25,105 nucleotides of DNA from a virus, in IMG/VR virus record IMGVR_UViG_3300031539_000291, positions 1-25,105 of that record; one strand, 5' to 3'. Below are positions 440 to 23,631 of this stretch, piece by piece (position 1 is the first letter of the stretch; each line of letters opens with the position of its first letter). A program made the position numbers and the translations under genes. Below the pieces are notes generated by a model. That model worked only from the letters and a program-made list of their open reading frames with translations, made no database searches and had not been told where the DNA came from.

Positions 440-715
440 TTATTGGTATGTAAATTTATCGTTATTATAATCTGTAAAAATAGAACCATCATTATCCGTC
501 AGATAATATGTTATTTCTGGCGGTACTGGTGGAACTGGAGGTATTGGTGAAACATATTCAACATATGCATCAAAAAATCCAAAATCATGTGCTAATTGTT
601 TCAATCCAAATTTTAAATGGTAAATAGCATATAAATTAGGAATAATTATTACACCACCAGTATTTGTTTTTCCTGTAGTTACTGCTTGTAATATTGTTTT
701 TTTTAATCTCTCCAT
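440..715 (-). CDS. Small proline-hinge protein in the baseplate operon, function unknown
   Basis: This 91-residue protein has its ATG overlapping the stop of the gp6-like gene by one base (TAATG), indicating translational coupling. Residues 1-55 look globular. A Pro-rich hinge (PIPPVPPVPPE, about residues 57-67) follows, then a short acidic/aromatic tail (YYLTDNDGSIFTDYNND). Such a layout fits a small virion linker or adaptor, but there is no recognisable family signature. The context between a baseplate wedge protein and another structural-looking gene is the only functional evidence. Confidence 0.65.
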   Translation of the reverse strand: MERLKKTILQAVTTGKTNTGGVIIIPNLYAIYHLKFGLKQLAHDFGFFDAYVEYVSPIPPVPPVPPEITYYLTDNDGSIFTDYNNDKFTYQ

Positions 716-2562
716 TATTCAACATTCTTCCTCAACAATACTTTAATATCTTTTTCTGGGTATTTTATTTCAAACATTGAATCCCTTGTTGAATAAATTG
801 TGTTATTTTCAATTTTAATTTCACCTGTGCTAGTATTCGTAATTGCTTGTGCAATTGTATTATTTGAATACTGGTCACCTACCTTATTAAACACTTTAAT
901 ATTAATAATATTAATAACACCATTTACTCCACTAATCTTATTTCCCAATTTACTTAAAAATAAATCTTGATTCATTTCATGAGAATTAATATCCAAATAA
1001 TCTCTAACTATTGAAATTATATTATTGGCAATCTGATTATCTGCGGTATTAGTAACATAAACATCAATTTCAAAACCTAAATTATATATTTTACCATTGT
1101 TGATTTCAATATAATCATTAACCATCCTAAATTCCGTTAAATATTCAGCAATATTAGTATTCATAATTGATGTACTACTGTTATCTAATTTACCTTCAGC
1201 ATTAATACCTAGAGTTGAAATCAACACTTTATTATTTATTTTAAATGTGTTAATTCTGAATGGTGAACCATACTTCCCGGGCATTTTATAAACCTGTATT
1301 TTATAATCAGTTAAACTAACATCCCTATTTTGACTAGAAAAATTATATTTAACTAAATACCTTATTTGTTCTGTGGTTAATCCATCGTTTCCACCAATAG
1401 CTGGAATAGGATTTGTTGTATTTAAACTTCTACGAACAGCTTGATTATATTCACTACGAGAACCATTAATTTCTAAATTATATGCACCAAGTTGTGTTAA
1501 CACATCTGCTCCAATATTAGAAGCGATACCACCACCTGTCCTATATTTAACAAATAATGTATGATTTGCTTTTAATCTCTCACCCAAAGCTGTATTATTT
1601 AAAAAGTTTTCAAGAAAATAACGATTACTAACTCCTTCTTTTAATAAACCATCTTTAAAAGCATTGACATCTGAATCACCAGAACCAAAAGTTAATTTGC
1701 AGAAACCATTAGGTGTATATTCTTTTAAGAATTTTTTTGTAACATCAATCCATTTACCAACCTTTAAATTATTAGTGTTGGTATTTGCAGATGAACTATA
1801 TGAATCTTCAACAAAAACACGTTGTTGTGCCAAAGCATCAACCTCATAAAATTTTTCACCTAATTGTACATAATCAACTTCCGTTGGATTTGTTGACCAA
1901 TTAGTACCTTGCATCAAATATACACTTTCAATTTCAATAACATCTGGGTCAGGAAGCGTAAATGAAAAAAATGGTGTAACATCACTAATATTAATAATTT
2001 TCTTGAAAGTACTTGTACCACCATTTATGACAACTTCTCTTTTTGTAACATTATAACTAACAGGAATACCATTAGTATCAAGTACGGGTATAATACTTCG
2101 ATTAGGGTCACCTAAACTACTAAGCGGTGAATTCCAATCAATATTTTCTTGTGTTTCAAATATTTTACCACCACCAAGTACTTGTGCACCCGCCTTTAAA
2201 ACTGGATAGTAAGTAGTATTTGGTGTATTTCCAAGAACAGGCACACTAACAGTGAAATCAACAACAGTAACACTTGGTCTTCTTGCTGGGATATTGAATC
2301 CCATATTTTTTGCTATATTTACAATACTAGCTCTTTGTTGTGCATATTCTAATTGAGTTTCTTGAAATGCTCTATCAGTATTAACACTAAGATTGTTAGT
2401 AACACCTGCGTTTAAATCGATAAGCATAGCACCAACGTTTGAATCAGTGAAATCTGAAAATATTTCAGAATATGTTTGACGAATCAAACCAATTAAGTCG
2501 GTTCTAATTTCTCCGAAAGTTCTGCTTCCATATTGAATTACATTTGTTATTTCTGTTGCCAT
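715..2562 (-). CDS. Baseplate wedge protein, gp6 / baseplate-J-like
   Basis: This 615-residue protein looks like the T4 gp6 / phage P2 J family, which forms the ring of the contractile-tail baseplate wedge. The N-terminus (about residues 1-95) has the typical opening: a helical stretch 'FGEIRTDLIGLIRQTYSEIFSDF' type followed by DSNVGAMLIDLNAG and a long helix with ERA/QQRAS-like residues leading to 'AKNMGFNIPARRPS'. Beta-rich domains follow, including a region near residues 400-430 (GGNDGLTTEQIRYLVKYNFS) that matches the conserved core of gp6-like proteins. The gene lies 13 nt after the gp25-like gene and 1 nt overlaps the next gene. The length is close to that of T4 gp6 (660 aa). The wedge role is inferred from family and neighbours. 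Confidence 0.85.
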   Translation of the reverse strand: MATEITNVIQYGSRTFGEIRTDLIGLIRQTYSEIFSDFTDSNVGAMLIDLNAGVTNNLSVNTDRAFQETQLEYAQQRASIVNIAKNMGFNIPARRPSVTVVDFTVSVPVLGNTPNTTYYPVLKAGAQVLGGGKIFETQENIDWNSPLSSLGDPNRSIIPVLDTNGIPVSYNVTKREVVINGGTSTFKKIINISDVTPFFSFTLPDPDVIEIESVYLMQGTNWSTNPTEVDYVQLGEKFYEVDALAQQRVFVEDSYSSSANTNTNNLKVGKWIDVTKKFLKEYTPNGFCKLTFGSGDSDVNAFKDGLLKEGVSNRYFLENFLNNTALGERLKANHTLFVKYRTGGGIASNIGADVLTQLGAYNLEINGSRSEYNQAVRRSLNTTNPIPAIGGNDGLTTEQIRYLVKYNFSSQNRDVSLTDYKIQVYKMPGKYGSPFRINTFKINNKVLISTLGINAEGKLDNSSTSIMNTNIAEYLTEFRMVNDYIEINNGKIYNLGFEIDVYVTNTADNQIANNIISIVRDYLDINSHEMNQDLFLSKLGNKISGVNGVINIINIKVFNKVGDQYSNNTIAQAITNTSTGEIKIENNTIYSTRDSMFEIKYPEKDIKVLLRKNVE

Positions 2563-2575
2563 TATATTTTATATT

Positions 2576-2974
2576 TTAAAAATTCAAATCAATATTACCT
2601 TCTTCATTAAGTGCTCCTTCTTCATAAGTAAACTTAATATTAACATTAAGTTGATTTTCACTTATAGGATTTCCTTCTTCATTATTATTCCAATTAAAAG
2701 TTACTGAAGTAATTTTAACTTCAGGAATATATAATCCTACCGTATTTTTTATTTCTTCTTCAACATCACTAGCAGTCAGATTATCATTAGGTTCGAAGAT
2801 GTATTTCAAAAGATTTGTTCCATAATCTGGTTCATAATACCTTTCATTTCTTTGTGTCAATAATAATAACAATAAATTGGAACTATATGAATCTTTACTT
2901 ACTTGATTCATTTGAATAAAACTCCTAGTTTCGTTATTATCTTTAAAAGGATATGTAATATTATACGAATTCAT
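2576..2974 (-). CDS. Baseplate wedge protein, gp25-like (lysozyme-fold family)
   Basis: This is a 132-residue protein of the gp25/GPW family that sits at the inner baseplate of contractile tails and helps start sheath assembly. The diagnostic segment is LLLLLTQRNERYYEPDYGTN (about residues 36-55), followed by LLKYIFEPND, matching the family pattern 'L...RGER...P.FG..L..ylFEP'. A C-terminal beta segment follows (VEEEIKNTVGLYIPEVKITSV). I chose the ATG at 2972-2974. The frame is open upstream to 3019, but that extension runs through the promoter motif at 2989-2997 and into the terminator, so it cannot be coding. It is first in its transcription unit and followed by the gp6-like gene. Confidence 0.88.
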   Translation of the reverse strand: MNSYNITYPFKDNNETRSFIQMNQVSKDSYSSNLLLLLLTQRNERYYEPDYGTNLLKYIFEPNDNLTASDVEEEIKNTVGLYIPEVKITSVTFNWNNNEEGNPISENQLNVNIKFTYEEGALNEEGNIDLNF

Positions 2975-2987
2975 TATAATTGATTTT

Positions 2988-2998
2988 TTATAAATACT
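2988..2998 (-). promoter_or_regulatory. Late-promoter-like motif AGTATTTATAA
   Basis: The coding strand reads AAGTATTTATAA 14 nt before the gp25-like start codon and just after the terminator of the preceding gene. It is one of seven exact GTATTTATA copies in the window, all placed before the first gene of a unit. Confidence 0.75.
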
Positions 2999-3003
2999 TA
3001 AAC

Positions 3004-3034
3004 AAAAAAATCCCGACAAATTTGTTTGTCAGGA
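3004..3034 (-). terminator. Intrinsic terminator after the 3056-3511 gene
   Basis: On the minus strand a 10-bp stem TCCTGACAAA / TTTGTCGGGA with one U-G wobble and the loop CAAA is followed by seven T residues. It ends the unit 4926-3056, and the gp25-unit promoter motif lies directly behind it. Confidence 0.9.
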
Positions 3035-7747: not shown

Positions 7748-8362
7748 TTATTTTATTTTATGAATTTCTTCATTAATCATTTTTAATAAAATATTAGTAC
7801 TTTCCATTAATTGGACTTTATCGTTATTAACATAATAGATATGATATTGAATATCTGGAGATAATTTATCTTTAATTTTAGTATATTCTGCAATTTTATT
7901 TTGCATTCCACCAGCAAAATCATCATAAACAACAATCTCTTTAAGGTCTTGATTATAGTTTTCAATTCTTAGAATAACATCACCTTTATCTGCTGAACCT
8001 TTTTTTGTTATAAGTTCATCCACAACAATCCCATTTAACCTTAAAATATTTTCAAGTTCGGGACGAAGTTTTTCCATACGAGAAGTTAAAATAATCGTTG
8101 TAGTATCGGGGTCAGCCATATCATTCTTCAATAGTCTCAATATGTTTGGAAATGGTTTGATATCAAACACATTAGTATCAAGACTTTCCTTACGACCCCA
8201 CCATCCTTGATATGGATATGGTTGTCCTGTCTTTTCTTCCCATTCTTTTTTACCTGTCTCAGGCATAGGACTATCGATTAATGTTCCATCAAAGTCGAAC
8301 ACAGAAAGCCTTTTCATGATATATAGATTTTTTTCGTAATCATATACTGCTAATCTTTTCAT
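7748..8362 (-). CDS. HAD-superfamily phosphatase, resembling the HAD domain of 'Swiss Army Knife' RNA-repair proteins
   Basis: This 204-residue protein has HAD motif I as VFDFDGTLIDSP (nucleophile D23, acid D25), motif II as ILTSRM (near residue 95) and a later acidic motif VVYDDFAGG. Right after motif I come P-x-P, a Trp and GWWGRKESL, the layout I associate with HAD_SAK-type domains. The likely reaction is phosphoester hydrolysis, perhaps of a 3' or 5' RNA end. Its start overlaps the stop of the PD-(D/E)XK-like gene by 4 nt (ATGA), so translation is coupled. The first 15 residues (MKRLAVYDYEK) imitate the next 11 (MKRLSVFDFDG), so an alternative start is the ATG at 8315-8317. Confidence 0.78.
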   Translation of the reverse strand: MKRLAVYDYEKNLYIMKRLSVFDFDGTLIDSPMPETGKKEWEEKTGQPYPYQGWWGRKESLDTNVFDIKPFPNILRLLKNDMADPDTTTIILTSRMEKLRPELENILRLNGIVVDELITKKGSADKGDVILRIENYNQDLKEIVVYDDFAGGMQNKIAEYTKIKDKLSPDIQYHIYYVNNDKVQLMESTNILLKMINEEIHKIK

Positions 8363-8859
8363 TTAAATATTGTTGTCATTATGAATTTATTAATATCACT
8401 AAATGGTACTACAACAACAATGTCTTGACGACCTGTTCTCTTATATCTATAATAAGCAATTTCCCCTAAATTATTGGGTTTAAGATATACATAACCAGTT
8501 GGATTTATTATTTTCTTTTCGGTAAAATTTTTAATATTCAATCTATGTATTAAATCAAAACGGTCTTCTCTATCAAAGGCAATTGCATGTGCCTTACCAT
8601 TAATCCAACCATCTCTACCATCAACTGTTTGAAATTCAATCCAAGTAAACCCATCTTTGTGACATTCTTTAGATTTAACATCAACAAGTGCCTCTTTACC
8701 ATCCTTAATTAACTTAACATCCCAATGCTCATATTTATCTTGGTACTTATTCGGTCTAATACATTTATATCCATCACGTATTGCTAATTCAATAAAATAA
8801 TCCTCGACCTTTTGAGCTTCAGAATATTTTTTATTTTGTAGTTTAACTAAATTTGACAT
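8359..8859 (-). CDS. PD-(D/E)XK-like nuclease-fold protein
   Basis: This 166-residue protein has the core order of small PD-(D/E)XK enzymes. An N-terminal helix with E19 (AQKVEDYFIELAIRDGY) is followed by EHWDVKLIKDGKEALVDVKSKE. The D of WDV and the D-V-K triplet about 15 residues later fit the metal-binding D...(D/E)xK pair. TWIEFQTVDGRDGWINGKAHAIAF (about 71-95) completes the sheet and is typical of phage members. A cut on DNA or RNA is plausible; the substrate is unknown. It lies between the multidomain repair protein (1 nt overlap at TAATG) and the HAD gene (4 nt overlap), so all three are one coupled operon. Confidence 0.6.
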   Translation of the reverse strand: MSNLVKLQNKKYSEAQKVEDYFIELAIRDGYKCIRPNKYQDKYEHWDVKLIKDGKEALVDVKSKECHKDGFTWIEFQTVDGRDGWINGKAHAIAFDREDRFDLIHRLNIKNFTEKKIINPTGYVYLKPNNLGEIAYYRYKRTGRQDIVVVVPFSDINKFIMTTIFK

Positions 8860-11800
8860 TATTCTTCCTCACTTACTTTACCTATTAGTGTCATTGGAAA
8901 ACCAAGTGGTTTCCAATCAGTTAATTTATTTGACATGACTGGTTTACCACCAGCATTTCGATTTACGGCTATGGTAATATGTGGTTTAGTATTTTTTGAT
9001 GTATAACCTTCAACACCAACAGCAAACACTAAACTACTTATTGCATAATCCACAACATTTAGAGTAATTATTTTATCTTCAAGTAAATCATATTTTTCCT
9101 GAGACTCTTCTGGAAGCTTACCTAATTTTATTGTCATATGATGTGCAAAAACATCCCAACCTTCAGGTATCATCGGTGTGAATAACTGAATTAGTTTTGT
9201 TCTGGATTCATCATCAAGAACCACTGCACTATAACTTATTTTTTTCACAGGTTCTTCTTTTAAAATATCTTTATCATTTAGTTTTAAAATTGATTTTTTT
9301 TCTTTTTTTGTTGAAAACACCAATTCATCACCAACCAACATACGATTTTTTTCAAATTTTTTTACATATTTTTCCCCTGCATCTTTTTTTACATAAGCTA
9401 TTGTTATATGTCCATGATATTCTGGATAAGTAATTTCACATGGTAATTCACGCATTTTAGAATTCATTTTATTTAAAATTCCTTTATTAATATCCATTTT
9501 TACAACATCAAATGCTTCATTTTCAAATATTGAAATACCATTAATTTCAACCTTAATCGGTTTTAAATCAAAATTTTTCTCATACAAATCAAACACCTTT
9601 TCTGCATTTACGTTATTATGAAAACCATATAATATTGTTGCATGTGGTTCAGTTTCAATTCCAAATTCATTATTTTTTTCGTAAATATCTTCTTTTTTTA
9701 TTATAGAAGTAATTTTCTTCCATTTAGGAATATCGAAAAACAACATAAGTGCACCATATTCAATTTGCTCATCACCCTCATTTATTGTTTCTTTTAATTG
9801 TTCAGGGGGCTGATTTACCAAAGATAATAATTCTTCACGAGTATTCCTAACATCATCATTATATATTTTCATTAACATGCTTTTCTGCATATCACCAATC
9901 TCTTTACCACGTAAACCAGCATCCATTAAATCATTACCGTTCACAGCTAACTCATTTACAGTTTTTGGGTATTTACCCGCTAATAATTCCTGTGCTGCAA
10001 CCTGTAAATTCTCTGGTAATATTTTACTATTTAGAACATCAGTTCCTTTACTTTTAATTACCATATTATGTGCTGCCGTTCTATTTATCATTTTATTAGT
10101 ACTTTCAACAGGCATCCCAACTGAAAGACCTTCAATTTCATCGATAATATCATTATCACCTCTGAAATATTTCTTATAGAATTCAACAGGTGATGTTGCG
10201 TCATGTGAAAGCAAATAAATATATTCACCAAGCGTTGTAACTTTATCCCAAACATTATTCGCCAATAAACCAGCATCAACACCCATATTCCTTAAAATTC
10301 CACTATCTTTTAGTAAAAAAGCACCCTTAAACTTATCACCCTTTTCAACAATCTTTTCGATTTCAATTTGAATTCTTTCATTATCAATAGTATTGATTTT
10401 ATCAGCATTAGCTTTAATTTCCTTATATGTATTGGGGTTAATTTCCATATTAAATCTACTGGCAAATTGAATTGCTCTTAACATTCTTAATGGGTCATCA
10501 ATAAATGATTTTGGATGAGTAATTTTAATTTCACCTGATTTTAAATCAGCAACACCATTAAATGGGTCGATAATATTCCCATCCATATCTTTAGCAATAG
10601 CATTAATTGTAAAATCTCTACGCTCTAAATCCTTTTCAATCGGTAATCTATAATCTGCCGTAATTTCAAAATCATTATGCCCCTCACCAGTAGATACTTC
10701 GGTTCTTGGTAGTGCTATGTCGATAACGTCAGTCTCTGAACTTTCATCACCACCTTTTGGTATGAATTTAGTTACAGCAAAACTATTACCGACAGGTTTT
10801 ACTGTACCATATTTTTTTAATATTTGTGTAAGTTTATCTTCAGGAATACCTCTAACAATAATATCAAGGTCTTTACTATCTTTTCCCAGATATTCATCAC
10901 GAACAGCACCACCAACAGCATAGATTTGACCACCGAGTTTTTCGACTTCGGCTCTAAATGGTAATTCCTGTATGGTTTTTATGTTTTCATTCATAGGTAC
11001 AAGACTACTAAAATATTCCTTAATATCCAAATTTTTTATTTCTTCTCCAATGATTTGAGCTAATTTTCCAGTACTTTCAGCATCTCTTGTGTTAAATCCA
11101 ACATGATTTCTTTCAGGGTTATACCATTCTAGGTAAATATAATTACTACCATATTTAACTAAGTCAGCAAATATTGTTTTAAATACTGAAACCACCCTTT
11201 TTTTATCATGACCATTTAGATTAAGTTCACCATTAAAATTCTTATATTCAAATATAACTCTAACCCAACCATCTTCAAGTGCTTTATCAAAAACCCTATC
11301 ATAATCCCAAGAAAATTCTTCATCTTTATATTGTCGCATTATGAGAGCTTTATGATTGAGTTTAGGAACTTCAATAAAACGGTTATCTGGTGAAACCCAT
11401 GCCCAAAAAGTTCTACTATGTGGAACACTTGTTTCATTAACGCTTCCAAATTCCAAATTATTAATATCTCCTTGATTACAAGCAACACTCGTATTACCTA
11501 AACCACCCAAACGACATTTCTTTTTCACTTTTACTGTTTTCGAACCTGTTCCAAACGATTTGTTTCTTTCTTCCAATTTATACTCATCTTGTGTTGCATC
11601 ACCATCAATATGATTATATTCAAGGTCTTCATACATTGCACTATTAGCATTGAGGTTATTATTAATACTTGGAGAAGTATCGTTTGTATTATATGCAGGG
11701 AAATCATCTTGATTAATAGCGTTGTCAGTTGTAAATTTAGAACTTCCGTCTTCACTAATTTTTAATGTGTCTCTATTAAAGAAGCCACGTCTTATTAGAT

Positions 11801-12740
11801 ATTCTTGAAGTTTCAATAAATTATTATAGAATTTAGGTTTATTTTCAACGATATTTAATACCTCACCCATATTATTAATACATTCATGGAAACTATCAGT
11901 AAGAACAGGAAGACCTTCGACTGCACCATCAGGGTAAGTATCTCGATTTGAAACAAAATTAATAAATTCTTCATTAATAACACCACTACCATCACTTACA
12001 CTATATGGAACTTGTGCCCACATACCTGTTCTAATTTCATTTCCACCACCGATATCACTGAGTATATCATCATTTCCATCAGCATTATTAAATAACTCAT
12101 ACATGCGATATTGAGGTTGTTGTTTTCTATCAGGACTATAATGTGTATTATAAACTTCATCATTAAGACCGTAGTCAGTCAAAACAATTGATGGTTGACC
12201 GTCTCGAAGTACTTCACCATAGCTGCTGGGTCTTCCCATATCACCAACACTTTGACTATAGTTTACAGCAAAATTAATTAAGTCACTACTAAATTCATTT
12301 TCCCAAAAAAATTCTTTCATTTCAGGAGTTTGACTGAAAACTGTTCCTCTACCCTTATTTTGATTTATCTCATTTTTTAAAAAATAATATAAATCATTAA
12401 GACTTGGAATTCCTGTAAGTTGTTTGATTCTGTTTTCGGTAACCTTCTTTCCCTTTTCTGATAACAACCAACTATCATCTTCAGCACTATCAAAAATTTC
12501 TGTTACAATATGTTGAGTATCCCTATAATAACCAGCACCAGCTTCTGCTTCGTTTTGTGCAACACCTTTGGCATTCTTAGCAAGTTTTAAAACTCTCTGA
12601 CCATCAATATCGTACACAATTCTTCCACTACCACTGCCGATTCTGGTTAGGTTTTCATTTGCATATTTAATTCTACCCGCAAATGATTTTATATTTGAAA
12701 GTTCAGGTAAAAAGTTTTCCTTAAATTCAACATATGTCAT
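8859..12740 (-). CDS. Multidomain protein: kinase-like fold, unknown domain, CCA-adding/poly(A) polymerase, two 2H phosphoesterase domains
   Basis: In this 1293-residue chain, residues 30-195 look kinase-like: a glycine loop GSGSGR (35-40), K52 and VLTDYG (186-191, DFG-like). Residues 440-560 form a domain I cannot name (FWAWVSPDNRF, GWVRVIFEY). Residues 590-980 are a class II CCA-adding enzyme/poly(A) polymerase: GGAVRD (610-615), DLDI (624-627), RRDFTINA (707-714), DDPLRMLRA (748-756), ERIQIE (788-793), plus the C-terminal helical part with NGNDL. Two 2H domains follow, each with two H-x-T motifs: HAT 1033/HIT 1111 and HMT 1201/HIT 1254. 2H enzymes act on 2',3'-cyclic phosphates or 2'-5' bonds. 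Together they could mend and re-tail cut tRNA. INE-G at 986-989 separates the polymerase from the 2H part. The gene has a late motif. Confidence 0.85.
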   Translation of the reverse strand: MTYVEFKENFLPELSNIKSFAGRIKYANENLTRIGSGSGRIVYDIDGQRVLKLAKNAKGVAQNEAEAGAGYYRDTQHIVTEIFDSAEDDSWLLSEKGKKVTENRIKQLTGIPSLNDLYYFLKNEINQNKGRGTVFSQTPEMKEFFWENEFSSDLINFAVNYSQSVGDMGRPSSYGEVLRDGQPSIVLTDYGLNDEVYNTHYSPDRKQQPQYRMYELFNNADGNDDILSDIGGGNEIRTGMWAQVPYSVSDGSGVINEEFINFVSNRDTYPDGAVEGLPVLTDSFHECINNMGEVLNIVENKPKFYNNLLKLQEYLIRRGFFNRDTLKISEDGSSKFTTDNAINQDDFPAYNTNDTSPSINNNLNANSAMYEDLEYNHIDGDATQDEYKLEERNKSFGTGSKTVKVKKKCRLGGLGNTSVACNQGDINNLEFGSVNETSVPHSRTFWAWVSPDNRFIEVPKLNHKALIMRQYKDEEFSWDYDRVFDKALEDGWVRVIFEYKNFNGELNLNGHDKKRVVSVFKTIFADLVKYGSNYIYLEWYNPERNHVGFNTRDAESTGKLAQIIGEEIKNLDIKEYFSSLVPMNENIKTIQELPFRAEVEKLGGQIYAVGGAVRDEYLGKDSKDLDIIVRGIPEDKLTQILKKYGTVKPVGNSFAVTKFIPKGGDESSETDVIDIALPRTEVSTGEGHNDFEITADYRLPIEKDLERRDFTINAIAKDMDGNIIDPFNGVADLKSGEIKITHPKSFIDDPLRMLRAIQFASRFNMEINPNTYKEIKANADKINTIDNERIQIEIEKIVEKGDKFKGAFLLKDSGILRNMGVDAGLLANNVWDKVTTLGEYIYLLSHDATSPVEFYKKYFRGDNDIIDEIEGLSVGMPVESTNKMINRTAAHNMVIKSKGTDVLNSKILPENLQVAAQELLAGKYPKTVNELAVNGNDLMDAGLRGKEIGDMQKSMLMKIYNDDVRNTREELLSLVNQPPEQLKETINEGDEQIEYGALMLFFDIPKWKKITSIIKKEDIYEKNNEFGIETEPHATILYGFHNNVNAEKVFDLYEKNFDLKPIKVEINGISIFENEAFDVVKMDINKGILNKMNSKMRELPCEITYPEYHGHITIAYVKKDAGEKYVKKFEKNRMLVGDELVFSTKKEKKSILKLNDKDILKEEPVKKISYSAVVLDDESRTKLIQLFTPMIPEGWDVFAHHMTIKLGKLPEESQEKYDLLEDKIITLNVVDYAISSLVFAVGVEGYTSKNTKPHITIAVNRNAGGKPVMSNKLTDWKPLGFPMTLIGKVSEEE

Positions 12741-12755
12741 ATTATAAACATTTTA

Positions 12756-12766
12756 ATATAAATACG
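12756..12766 (-). promoter_or_regulatory. Late-promoter-like motif CGTATTTATAT
   Basis: An exact GTATTTATA lies 16 nt before the ATG of the 1293-aa multidomain gene and shortly after the terminator at 12792-12816. Confidence 0.75.
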
Positions 12767-13567: not shown

Positions 13568-14491
13568 TTATTTGAAAAAGGTTATCTTTTTATATGGAAT
13601 TGTTGGTTTTTCTGTTTCACTAACCTCAGTTGGAGTTTGATTTAATGTTGTTTGAGTTTGATTTAATTTATCATTAAAAAATTTATCGTCTTGTTGTTTA
13701 TTAGTATTTACTAAAGAATCATAAAGTTGTGGTAAATTACCAACAATTGCAATATCAGGAATATTTTGTCTATCTTTATCTTTAACTTGAATTAATTGGA
13801 AATCTTTTTTATCATCAATTACCACTAAATAATTACCATGACTAGTTTTATGTACTCTACTAGCAATATCACGTAGTTTAGTTACATCATCAGCAGTAAT
13901 TTTTCTTGCGTTCTTATTTCCTCTTCTAATACTATCCCATTTCGCTCTATCTCTATCACCTCTTGAAATTTTATCACCTTTAAATTCTCTATCATAAGTA
14001 TAATCGAAATCGGGTTCATTTTTTGTTGAAACATAAGCAATAATACTCGTCATGTCTTTATCACCACCTTCATGATATCCAGCAGGTATCATCGGTAAAC
14101 CATTCGCATCATTAAATTTTTTCCCTATTGGGTATATTTTTGATATTTTTGATACATCGAACATCCTCCATCCCGGTTTTGAACCTTCAGAATCTGTCCA
14201 ATAATCATGATGTTGACTATCAGTACGTGTTGGTTTATTATCGAAATGCCAACTATTTCTTGGATTATCTTGCCATGCTCTTAAAACAGTGTTTCCCGCA
14301 GTACTTGTTCCTAGAACATATGGTCTTATTGTACGATAACCAGTTTTATTTTTATCATCACCATTATAATAAAGATAAATCCATTCATGATTCTCAATAG
14401 CTTTGACAATATTGTCTTGGCTAACGCCTTCAGTTATAAGATGACGAAAGTTTTTTATGTTTTCAAATAATATTTTTGTTTCTTCACTCAT
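13568..14491 (-). CDS. WYL-domain-like protein without a DNA-binding domain
   Basis: Residues 26-120 of this 307-residue protein resemble a WYL domain, an SH3-like sheet that binds ligands or nucleic acid and usually controls bacterial regulators. The motifs are the helix IVKAIENHEW, the strand IYLYYNG, TIRPYVLGTS, LRAWQ (70-74) and GWRMFDVSKISKIYPIG. There is no helix-turn-helix. The first 25 residues (ILFENIKNFRHLITEGVS) form a helix ending in ITE-G (19-22), which resembles a cleavable head-packaging tag. The middle (about 175-235) is charged and basic, with RDRAKWDSIRRGNKNARK, and the tail is Gln/Thr-rich. The ATG overlaps the stop of the repeat-protein gene by one base. The function is unknown; it may be an internal or injected protein. 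Confidence 0.68.
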   Translation of the reverse strand: MSEETKILFENIKNFRHLITEGVSQDNIVKAIENHEWIYLYYNGDDKNKTGYRTIRPYVLGTSTAGNTVLRAWQDNPRNSWHFDNKPTRTDSQHHDYWTDSEGSKPGWRMFDVSKISKIYPIGKKFNDANGLPMIPAGYHEGGDKDMTSIIAYVSTKNEPDFDYTYDREFKGDKISRGDRDRAKWDSIRRGNKNARKITADDVTKLRDIASRVHKTSHGNYLVVIDDKKDFQLIQVKDKDRQNIPDIAIVGNLPQLYDSLVNTNKQQDDKFFNDKLNQTQTTLNQTPTEVSETEKPTIPYKKITFFK

Positions 14492-15072
14492 TAAACTGTA
14501 CTATTCCCAAAACCATATTCTTTACTTTTAGTATAAAGACCAGAATTCTTAGCTAACATACATTCTCTGTTAGCAAAATCAATACTTGTCCCAGCTTCCA
14601 TACCAGCACTTTCTGGTTCTCTACCTTTCTCATCACCATCTGCCATTGTATCTGGTGATGCTGGTAAATATTGATTAGTAGAACTATAACCATCAGCATT
14701 TTTAGCCATCATACAATTTCTGTTAGCGATATCGGTTTTTGTTCCAATACTTCCACCTTCTTGTTCTGGTTCTCTACCCTTATCATCACCATTAGAAAAA
14801 CTATCTGCATGACCTGCACCATATTCGTTACTTCTTGTGTAGCCATCAGCATTTTTAGCCATCATACAATTTCTGTTAGCGATATCGGTTTTTGTTCCAA
14901 TACTTCCACCTTCTTGTTCTGGTTCTCTACCTTTATCATCACCGTCAGAAATTGTATCGGAAGTAGCTGGGCAATATTCATTCCCGGGAGAGTGCCTAGC
15001 ACTGTTCTTAGCAATTGAACATGTTCTATAGTCTTCACTATTTTCTAATAATCTGCTGCTTTCATCTGCCAT
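14491..15072 (-). CDS. Protein of 51-residue tandem repeats, each with one Cys
   Basis: This 193-residue acidic protein is made of about 3.4 repeats of 51 residues. Each unit contains RxCMxAKNxxxY, then an EY-containing variable stretch, then DGDDKGREPEQEGG and SIGTKTDIAN. Two DNA copies of about 90 bp (near 14690-14780 and 14843-14933) are almost identical, so the repeat grew recently. There is one Cys per unit at the same place, and no membrane segment or signal. The repeat family is not known to me. The regular Cys and acidic loops suggest an extended repeat or a metal- or disulfide-linked fibre in the virion. The gene starts a unit, 31 nt after a late motif, and is coupled to the WYL gene. 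Confidence 0.78.
   Translation of the reverse strand: MADESSRLLENSEDYRTCSIAKNSARHSPGNEYCPATSDTISDGDDKGREPEQEGGSIGTKTDIANRNCMMAKNADGYTRSNEYGAGHADSFSNGDDKGREPEQEGGSIGTKTDIANRNCMMAKNADGYSSTNQYLPASPDTMADGDEKGREPESAGMEAGTSIDFANRECMLAKNSGLYTKSKEYGFGNSTV
14543..15009 (-). repeat. 153-bp tandem repeats inside the repeat-protein gene
   Basis: About three units of 153 bp (51 codons) are in frame. The segment running from GATAAAGGTAGAGAACCAGA through the GGAAGTATTGGAACAAA region to the Tyr codon of ADGY is nearly identical in two copies, while the third is diverged. The period is a multiple of three, so length changes keep the frame. Confidence 0.85.
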
Positions 15073-15114: not shown

Positions 15115-15897
15115 TTAATCATATTTTTTAAATACAAGAGTGATATATTCGATTAAATGTGGAACTAGTTCAAGAAATTCCATTTCACTTATATCATACC
15201 AACCATATTTTACATTCTCTTTCATATCGAGTTCAACATCAGTATCATCACCTTCATATCGACAAGCAAAAACAGTTTCTTCACTATCAGCGTGTCTTTC
15301 AATACTAAAAGATTCAATAAAATTATTTATTTCTAAACCAGTCTCTTCTTTAATTTCTCTTTCACATGCTTTCTCTGGGGATTCTCCTTTTTCAATACTA
15401 CCACCTACAAGTGCCCATTTATCTGGCATCCATTGGTCCTGAAAATCTGAACGTTTTAATAATAAAATTTTATTATCATTATTTACAATAACAGCAACTG
15501 CGTTTTTATCTTTCTCTTTTTTCTTAGCTTCATTAAGTCTTGGTGTTTGTTGTGGTTTTAATTCTGAATTATTAGTATTTGAATTAACATCACGTCTAAT
15601 ATTTTTCGACCTAGCAACACCTGCTCTATCTTGATTCAATGTAGTTTCAATAAATGCTTTCATTAATTGACCACCAGCAAGATTAAATTGGTTTGGGTCA
15701 CCTGTTTGAGTATTGAAGTAATCGAAAAAATTTTTCAATCTCTTAAGTGTTTGATAAGTCAAATAACCATTATTAAGCATGAATTTAGCTCGTTTAACGC
15801 CTTCTCCTGTCGGATTGGATACCAAGGATGCTTGAATACCTTTAAGTACTTCAGGTGGTATCTTATATGTTTTATCGTATAATTCCTGATTAGCCAT
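15115..15897 (-). CDS. Nudix hydrolase fused to an N-terminal phage domain
   Basis: Residues 1-100 of this 260-residue protein form a helical domain (IPPEVLKGIQASL, GVKRAKFMLNNGYLTYQTLKRLKNFFDYF) that I do not know outside phages. A linker (101-130) contains RLNE-A (120-124). Residues 130-260 are a Nudix domain with a complete box (166-188): G, then five residues, E172, then REIKEETGL. The reaction would be hydrolysis of a nucleoside diphosphate linked to another moiety; the substrate is unknown (candidates are NAD-like, capped RNA or mutagenic nucleotides). The ATG overlaps the upstream gene by 8 nt. The linker site would free the enzyme from its N-terminal part if it is cut by a head protease. 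Confidence 0.88.
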   Translation of the reverse strand: MANQELYDKTYKIPPEVLKGIQASLVSNPTGEGVKRAKFMLNNGYLTYQTLKRLKNFFDYFNTQTGDPNQFNLAGGQLMKAFIETTLNQDRAGVARSKNIRRDVNSNTNNSELKPQQTPRLNEAKKKEKDKNAVAVIVNNDNKILLLKRSDFQDQWMPDKWALVGGSIEKGESPEKACEREIKEETGLEINNFIESFSIERHADSEETVFACRYEGDDTDVELDMKENVKYGWYDISEMEFLELVPHLIEYITLVFKKYD

Positions 15898-22968: not shown

Positions 22969-23631
22969 ATGAAATCAGGTGTTTATATAATTAAAAATTG
23001 TATTAATGAAAAACTATATGTTGGTAGTTCTAAAAATATTAATGAACGATGGGTAAAACATAAATTTACACTAAATAATAAAAAGCATTGTAATAAACAT
23101 TTGAATAGTGCATGGAATAAATATGGTGAAAATAATTTTAAATTTTCGGTCATTGAATATGTTGAATTAGATAAATTGATTGAAAGAGAACAATATTATA
23201 TTGATTACTATAACGCCTGTGATAAAAACATTGGATATAATATTGCACCCCAAGCTGGAACTAATTTAGGGTGGCAACCATCAGTAAGCACGAGAAAAAA
23301 AATGAGTGAAAGTGCAAAGAAAAAACCGCCAGTCACCGAAGAAACTAAAAAGAAATTAAGTATAGTTCATATGGGAAATAAAAATGCATTAGGTAGCATT
23401 AAAACGACAGAAATGAAGAAAAAACAGTCGGAATTAATGAAGGGTACAAATCAGGGTGAAAAAAATGGTATGGCAATTACTAATAAAAATGAAGTTATTG
23501 CTATACGAAATGACTATAATAATGGTATGACGTTATCACAATTACAAACAAAATATAATAAAAAGAATTCATTCACATATCAAATTGTTAAAAGATTAAG
23601 ATGGGAATGGTTGGAACAACCAGTTAAATAA
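22969..23631 (+). CDS. GIY-YIG homing endonuclease with NUMOD-type repeats
   Basis: This 220-residue enzyme opens with the GIY-YIG nuclease core: GVYIIKN (GVY 4-6), KLYVGSS (YVG 17-19, a YIG variant), R27 in NERWVKHK and a Glu in LIEREQYY (72-74) as metal ligand. Lys/Ser/Thr-rich NUMOD3-like DNA-binding segments follow (STRKKMSESAKKK, TEETKKKLS, about 106-160), then a C-terminal helix-turn-helix (GMTLSQLQTKYNKKNS) ending RWEWLEQ. It cuts DNA at a preferred site and spreads its own gene. It is the only plus-strand gene, it has a late-type motif as known for I-TevI of T4, and its end overlaps the convergent gene by 8 bp. Confidence 0.88.
   Translation: MKSGVYIIKNCINEKLYVGSSKNINERWVKHKFTLNNKKHCNKHLNSAWNKYGENNFKFSVIEYVELDKLIEREQYYIDYYNACDKNIGYNIAPQAGTNLGWQPSVSTRKKMSESAKKKPPVTEETKKKLSIVHMGNKNALGSIKTTEMKKKQSELMKGTNQGEKNGMAITNKNEVIAIRNDYNNGMTLSQLQTKYNKKNSFTYQIVKRLRWEWLEQPVK

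Follow-up and report, generated by a model that had tools for sequence, protein, structure and literature searches.

The locus and its closest described systems

In the excerpts of Iyer et al. 2017 considered here (PMC5512222), the polyvalent proteins of phages and conjugative elements are predicted to be packaged and injected, their domains are in some cases released by embedded peptidases, and they are likened to RNA-virus polyproteins. In phage T4, gp21 has a cleavage consensus after L/I-X-E (PMC9026906), and gene 57B was shown by Hobbs et al. to be Acb1 (PMC9117128). Here we examine the complete 25,105-base IMG/VR record IMGVR_UViG_3300031539_000291 (the window), a piece of a larger phage whose own genome is readable only in these 25 kb. 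The element in question is a 1293-amino-acid (aa) polyprotein gene with homologues, encoded in an uninterrupted open reading frame (ORF) at 8859 to 12740; the genes, modules and sites located below lie on the minus strand unless stated otherwise. Its chain comprises a kinase-like module, a conserved linker, a WAWVSPD module, a class II tRNA nucleotidyltransferase (CCA enzyme) and two 2H phosphoesterases (2H-1 and 2H-2), and genes for a protein weakly labeled PD-(D/E)XK (PD-like) and a SAK-type HAD phosphatase follow.

We put at about one in two the probability that this gene specifies a polyvalent-type cargo polyprotein, expressed late by a clade of huge T4-like tailed phages; on this reading the prohead protease would cut the chain, and its pieces would be injected together with the phage DNA. 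What is new here is an excess of L-x-E and I-x-E, the T4 prohead protease consensus, at the module junctions. An earlier sequence-only reading of the window had described a compact RNA-end-repair operon with a five-part, polyprotein-like enzyme.

A family of shuffled polyproteins

Neither a near-identity search of isolate phages nor a whole-protein scan of IMG/VR gave a match, and tblastn against ~50,700 phage records returned single domains only, the nearest relatives of the CCA enzyme, 2H-1 and HAD being in uncultured phages of ~480-640 kb. IMG/VR relatives were found by domain-level alignments and profile-guided scans; the latter yielded 136 relatives of the N-terminal module, ~40 of them full-length (at least 40 huge-phage contigs). 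Complete polyprotein ORFs range from 740 to 2688 aa, and their architecture is a kinase-like start and the conserved linker, then exchangeable modules (a second kinase-like domain, ART-PolyVal, GNAT, WAWVSPD in tandem in some, and others). ART-PolyVal (43.3 bits, cut-off 31.2) and GNAT occur together in L015, GNAT also in L137 and L138; the window chain has, of the polyvalent repertoire, the kinase-like and Pol-beta NTase domains only.

The evidence for a modular polyprotein family is solid at the level of sequence comparison, and by predicted domain make-up the chain belongs with the polyvalent proteins. The compact five-part enzyme of the sequence-only reading is one among many shuffled arrangements in at least 40 relatives; a search for the same order elsewhere, which that reading had proposed, recovered the family of the N-terminal module, with the order shuffled and not fixed. 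One relative with 62% identity lies on a contig binned in a Bacteroidota metagenome-assembled genome, which hints at a Bacteroidota host. In L137, L139, L140 and L141 the polyprotein region is split into at least two genes, with homing-endonuclease-like ORFs in between.

Prohead-protease motifs at module junctions

Junctions were set without reference to any motif, as the starts of local alignments among 36 non-redundant polyproteins (n = 296). Of these, 177 had [LI]xE, where random positions gave 107.9 ± 8.3, and the signal peaked sharply on the junction. When all a.b residue pairs were ranked blindly, L.E came first (97 vs 28.8) and I.E second (73 vs 34.9); because these pairs match the T4 gp21 consensus, we liken the junction motif to a prohead protease site. 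Before selected module anchors the strict motif was found in 26 of 33 cases (background, 27.5%), the DKY module having it in just 2 of 7. The enrichment at the joints is solid, and calling the chain "polyprotein-like" proved a good intuition, on grounds that the sequence-only reading had not seen.

In the window, four predicted internal sites are strict: ISE|D (aa 328-330, 11751 to 11759), the place at which relatives show INE|G-type sites and the insertion of a second kinase-like module; LEE|R (aa 389-391, 11568 to 11576), where L137 has its GNAT module inserted; INE|G at the CCA/2H-1 joint (aa 986-988, 9777 to 9785); and LKE|E at the 2H-1/2H-2 joint (aa 1160-1162, 9255 to 9263). Two further predicted sites, VNE|T (aa 434-436, 11433 to 11441) and MNE|N (aa 583-585, 10986 to 10994), have V and M at P3; in L015 the ART follows the same VNE.

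The S77 prohead protease is encoded by the polyprotein carriers G001, G005, G008 and G014. The gp23 homologues of S77-encoding carriers have INE|S near residue 57-60, and other relatives show LTE, LQE or INE there. The cut in T4 gp23 is at FLTE|A, which by alignment falls in the same N-terminal region as the relatives' motif, not column for column. As a separate observation, the prohead protease gene of L132 and L133 (G008 and G005) is apparently interrupted in frame by an intein-like insert, the protease halves lying ~1.2 kb apart in a single 650-aa frame.

We infer cutting by the prohead protease and injection from these sequence features. A polyvalent-type injected protein might also be kept as one chain, like the N4 virion RNA polymerase, its linkers serving as flexible tethers. 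The polyvalent domain repertoire, the synteny with baseplate genes and the promoter motif common to head genes (see below) would suit such an uncut chain, but it leaves unexplained why the junctions single out L.E and I.E over all other residue pairs and why a T4-type protease is present in carriers; we regard it as quite unlikely.

Leaders on stand-alone modules

Modules found as single genes often begin with a similar motif. [LI].E was present in 29 of 44 different stand-alone 2H-1 leaders, compared with 24% of 1105 control ORFs; Y..F[ILM].E, which reproduces the register of T4 exactly, occurred in 8 of the 44 and in 1 of the 1105. Examples are MKNYKQFIKE|S and MKKYLEFIKE|A, against MKTYQEFIAE|A of T4 (confirmed in T4 records). 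The same ART module forms its own gene in G001, behind the leader LLNE|, and is part of the L015 polyprotein, where the linker SVNE| precedes it; in L061 separate genes for the ART, 2H-2 and 2H-1 lie side by side, each beginning with a similar MIKLK... leader. As these ART and L061 cases argue, modules move between the chain and leader-bearing single genes. The window polyprotein itself starts with a leader-like MTYVEFKENFLPE|L (aa 1-13, 12702 to 12740), the TY-x-EF of which resembles the T4 TYQEF.

Modules of the chain

The kinase-like module (aa 14-330, 11751 to 12701) was assigned from motifs and a predicted model. A glycine-rich loop, KLAKN, GDMGR and DYG are conserved among homologues of the N-terminal 330 aa, and the top Foldseek matches of the low-confidence model (mean pLDDT 63) are almost all of kinase fold (best E 9.6e-4). 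Against VIA the same model, at that pLDDT, gave Z 6.6 over 79 aligned residues with a root mean square deviation (rmsd) of 3.6. Comparison with relatives delimits the conserved linker that follows (...KKKCRLGGLGNTSVACNQGDINNL..., aa 331-436, 11433 to 11750). The WAWVSPD module (aa 437-585, 10986 to 11432), defined by sequence and a model with pLDDT 81, is the domain that the sequence-only reading had left without a name; Foldseek gave no match for it below E 0.2, and its gelsolin-like structural matches are middling (Z 5.4, rmsd 3.8, 92 aligned).

The CCA enzyme (aa 586-988, 9777 to 10985) matches PF01743 in its head (aa 606-738, E 1.1e-21, 77.9 bits vs cut-off 23), PF12627 in its RNA-binding part (aa 764-818) and phrog_2244 (E 6e-61). 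Its GGAVRD, SKDLDI and RRDFTINA motifs are all intact, and with GGxVRD, DxD and RRD motifs plus an RNA-binding domain the module is assigned by sequence to class II. The kinase-like N-terminal region, the class II CCA/poly(A) polymerase with intact motifs and the two 2H domains with both HxT motifs each, all recognized by the sequence-only reading, held, the nearest PDB structures to the modeled kinase-like region being kinase-fold enzymes.

The two 2H domains

2H-2 (aa 1163-1293, 8862 to 9254) has HMT at 1201 and HIT at 1254, both HxT motifs being invariant across 12 homologues. PF08302, the fungal tRNA-ligase phosphodiesterase family, matches 12 of 12 members (best 8.7e-8), with 18.7 bits for the window 2H-2 (cut-off 23) and 33 and 25.6 bits for the relatives L135 and L143, the latter a more distant phage. 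A sequence-profile search with 2H-2 found no solved relative. In G018, 2H-2 is fused behind a P-loop kinase (AAA_33) as a Trl1-like pair, an order that we take to be the healing half of Trl1.

2H-1 (aa 989-1162, 9255 to 9776) has HAT at 1033 and HIT at 1111 and scores 27.2 bits with PF13563. The nearest solved relative of its profile is Acb1 (6.8e-5); the generic PF13563 and the Acb1 Pfam model each match 6 of 6 members, PF13563 at least as well, and the window 2H-1 by itself scores 26.9 with the Acb1 model against a cut-off of 27 bits. Aromatics occupy two of the four positions that stack nucleobases in Acb1, and no clear counterpart of the Acb1 lid residues E141/W147 was found in 2H-1. The PHROG that 2H-1 matches is labeled "RNA ligase"; this function was rejected for 2H-1, the family being that of T4 57B, that is, Acb1. 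The domain is optional, occurring in 13 of 31 loci (complete polyprotein ORF ends, the window counted); its substrates may be cyclic oligonucleotides, RNA ends or both. The earlier view of both 2H domains as tRNA-repair enzymes is in keeping with the likeness of 2H-2 to the CPD family and is unproven for 2H-1.

These likenesses bear on a reading of the locus as mainly counter-signalling, in which 2H-1 would cleave CBASS-type cyclic oligonucleotides, other modules would modify host proteins and the CCA enzyme would be accessory. The profile relationship to Acb1 and the membership in the 57B family speak for it; the restriction of 2H-1 to the 13 loci, when CCA, 2H-2 and HAD are nearly constant, and the missing lid residues, with a generic model fitting no worse, speak against it, and we rate it lowest among the alternatives.

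Relatives of 2H-1 also occur elsewhere: in LR745206 (L004:4992-6308) a 2H-1 that starts with a MKLKKYKQFIKES leader is joined to a part resembling a DnaQ-like exonuclease, and in L057, L063, L065 and L089 such domains lie inside ~3000-aa ORFs of other phages, likely other polyvalent-type proteins.

An operon with a constant RNA-end-repair core

As the sequence-only reading had it, the polyprotein, PD-like and HAD genes form one translationally coupled operon of uninterrupted ORFs. The PD-like ORF (166 aa, 8359 to 8859) starts on the last base of the polyprotein stop codon (TAATG), a 1-nt overlap of the same type as in the relative L135, and overlaps the HAD ORF (204 aa, 7748 to 8362) by 4 nt. 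The PD-like protein is syntenic in some relatives. Its PD-(D/E)XK label is weaker than had been stated, the best profile label, NOV_C, reaching 15.6 bits against a cut-off of 22.1. The HAD assignment stood as a syntenic family conserved among relatives and matching phrog_415 (polynucleotide kinase, E 6e-6), with PF10307 at 25.2 bits, just below its cut-off of 25.6.

CCA, 2H-2 and HAD occur together, fused or in nearby genes, in 28 of the 31 loci (the HAD of L223 was read separately). Family scans of the window turned up no RNA ligase, in line with the sequence-only reading, and its suggestion of a ligase elsewhere holds in relatives, where Rnl1 genes are present in G001, G008 and G014 and Rnl2-type genes in G001, G005, G008 and G002. 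G001 has 46 tRNA predictions, three ending in CCA, and its Rnl1 gene lies within the tRNA array. The linkage of the three enzymes, together with the ligases of relatives and tRNAs that mostly lack an encoded CCA, gives good support to RNA-end repair as the family's constant theme. The proposal that the phage may heal tRNAs is therefore supported as to its repair core; it had not considered expression with late virion genes. A limited literature search found no description of a chain with this repair core, or of prohead-protease sites between its modules.

The same core could belong to a stand-alone RNA-end-repair machine that remains uncut in the infected cell and restores tRNAs broken by host nucleases. 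Its near constancy, the likeness of 2H-2 to the tRNA-ligase CPD family with the kinase-CPD fusion of G018, the ligases and tRNA arrays of relatives, and unfused 2H-2, CCA and HAD genes without leaders are all consistent with such a machine. It would leave unexplained the L-x-E/I-x-E at joints, the swapping of ART and GNAT, and the leaders on stand-alone versions, and on balance we consider it unlikely.

Synteny and probable late expression

In nine regions (L135-L142 and L144) the gene order is DNA polymerase, P214, NUDIX, P193, WYL-like, P242, polyprotein, (PD), HAD, ParB-like and glycosyltransferase, continuing to baseplate gp25 and gp6 wherever the region reaches, with some gene insertions and losses; L143 lies outside this synteny. 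In the window, the baseplate wedge genes (gp6-like and gp25-like), identified by family match and synteny, are at 715 to 3019.

A promoter-like GTATTTATA (12757 to 12765) lies ~20 nt upstream of the polyprotein start and also upstream of P242, P193, P214 and the ParB-like gene in the window. The window and most relatives read have GTATTTAT ~20 nt ahead of the polyprotein, and one relative has CTATTTAT. In G001, 39 ORFs (1.9 expected) have a coding-strand GTATTTAT at 11-45 nt upstream, including gp25, the portal (phrog_213, 5.7e-52), the terminase (1.6e-32), the polyprotein, a scaffold-like gene that adjoins gp23, and several leader-bearing single genes, ART among them. Judging from the genes it precedes, GTATTTAT would be a late promoter, one that could serve to list late genes in this clade (G001, L145-L161). 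The T4 late promoter TATAAATA occurs in the window about as often as expected (9 vs 7.9). Given the synteny and the promoter-like motif common to head genes, the polyprotein is probably expressed late, with the virion genes.

Among the neighbors, a gene syntenic in relatives (13568 to 14491) has a WYL-like segment and a leader-like FRHLITE|G; neither it nor the PD-like protein had a match in the phage collection. The P193 protein (14491-15072) has 193 aa with about three tandem unit copies, against 79-95 aa in relatives. The NUDIX protein (15115-15897), conserved in its N-terminal part, carries LNE|A directly before its NUDIX domain and may also be two-part cargo. A GIY-YIG homing-endonuclease-like gene (22969-23631) is the sole large plus-strand gene of the window.

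Weighing the proposed delivery as a cut cargo

If the gene encodes a cargo polyprotein, the chain would go into the prohead core, the S77 prohead protease would cut it at the joints during capsid maturation, and the freed enzymes would be ejected together with the DNA. Once in the new cell, 2H-2 would open the rings of 2',3'-cyclic phosphates and HAD would take off the phosphate; 3' ends would be restored by the CCA enzyme, and breaks sealed by a phage ligase made in that cell. 2H-1 may instead destroy cyclic-oligonucleotide alarm signals, like Acb1, and a rotating set of counter-defence cargo would be supplied by the variable modules (ART, GNAT, a second kinase and others). In this full form, which we advance tentatively, counter-defence and repair enzymes would be prohead-targeted, cut at the L/I-x-E joints and injected separately, repair would precede phage gene expression, and modules would move freely between the chain and leader-bearing single genes.

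Several points weigh against cutting and delivery. At P3, V or M takes the place of L/I in two of the six internal sites predicted in the window; [LI]xE also arises by chance within folded domains, and alignment starts taken as junctions can favor shared short motifs. S77 was seen in relatives, the window's own genome being readable in its 25 kb, and its presence does not discriminate, since it also occurs in phages whose 2H-1 is leaderless. The N-terminal LPE of the polyprotein is not fully conserved (FLADF or FLDKF in some relatives), the ORFs of G001 taken together show no enrichment of N-terminal [LI].E, and leaders are modestly associated with GTATTTAT there (p 0.003 with one leader pattern, 0.06 with another). 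The separate 2H-2 genes of this clade (MNNISYSAVVLD...), HAD and the PD-like protein have no L/I-x-E leader; therefore packaging of the repair enzymes is not forced, at least when they are unfused.

Were the cargo reading true, a head-maturation protease would double as the processing enzyme of a delivered polyprotein, and particles could carry RNA-repair enzymes, ready against tRNA-cutting defences from the first minute. The L-x-E joint and the Y..FI.E leader would give a sequence rule predicting injected proteins in huge phages, most genes of which lack known function. The conserved set that we name for testing is CCA, CPD-type 2H and HAD.

Comparison with known systems

Like the polyvalent proteins in the excerpts of PMC5512222, the polyproteins described here are phage-encoded chains of shuffled enzymatic domains, with kinase-like, Pol-beta NTase, GNAT and ART-PolyVal domains in common. 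The embedded peptidases described in those excerpts differ from the arrangement predicted here, in which the joints carry sites for the phage's separate prohead protease; nor do the excerpts, in which "CCA" is absent, describe a constant core of CCA, CPD-type 2H and HAD for polyvalent proteins.

The T4 proteins IPI-IPIII and Alt have short N-terminal leaders in the register Y..FI.E, are cut by S77 after L/I-X-E and are encoded by late genes, and Alt-type ART genes adjoin baseplate genes, a likeness to the place of the polyprotein. The chain would work much as the T4 Alt and IP cargoes do; those are single cargoes, whereas many would be joined here in one chain with predicted sites between them. 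With fungal Trl1 (kinase-CPD) and phage RNA healing systems the family shares a CPD-like 2H-2 and, in one relative, a P-loop kinase ahead of it; unlike Trl1, the chain has no ligase, the ligases of relatives being elsewhere in the genome, and a CCA enzyme is added. As in Acb1 (T4 gene 57B), 2H-1 has the two HxT motifs and the YPxYxPHIT context, with an aromatic where Acb1 has W74, whereas the C-terminal lid residues were not found by sequence comparison. Finally, the CCA enzyme of the huge phage LR756504 (388 aa) is 42% identical over the whole enzyme; it stands alone there and is a module here.

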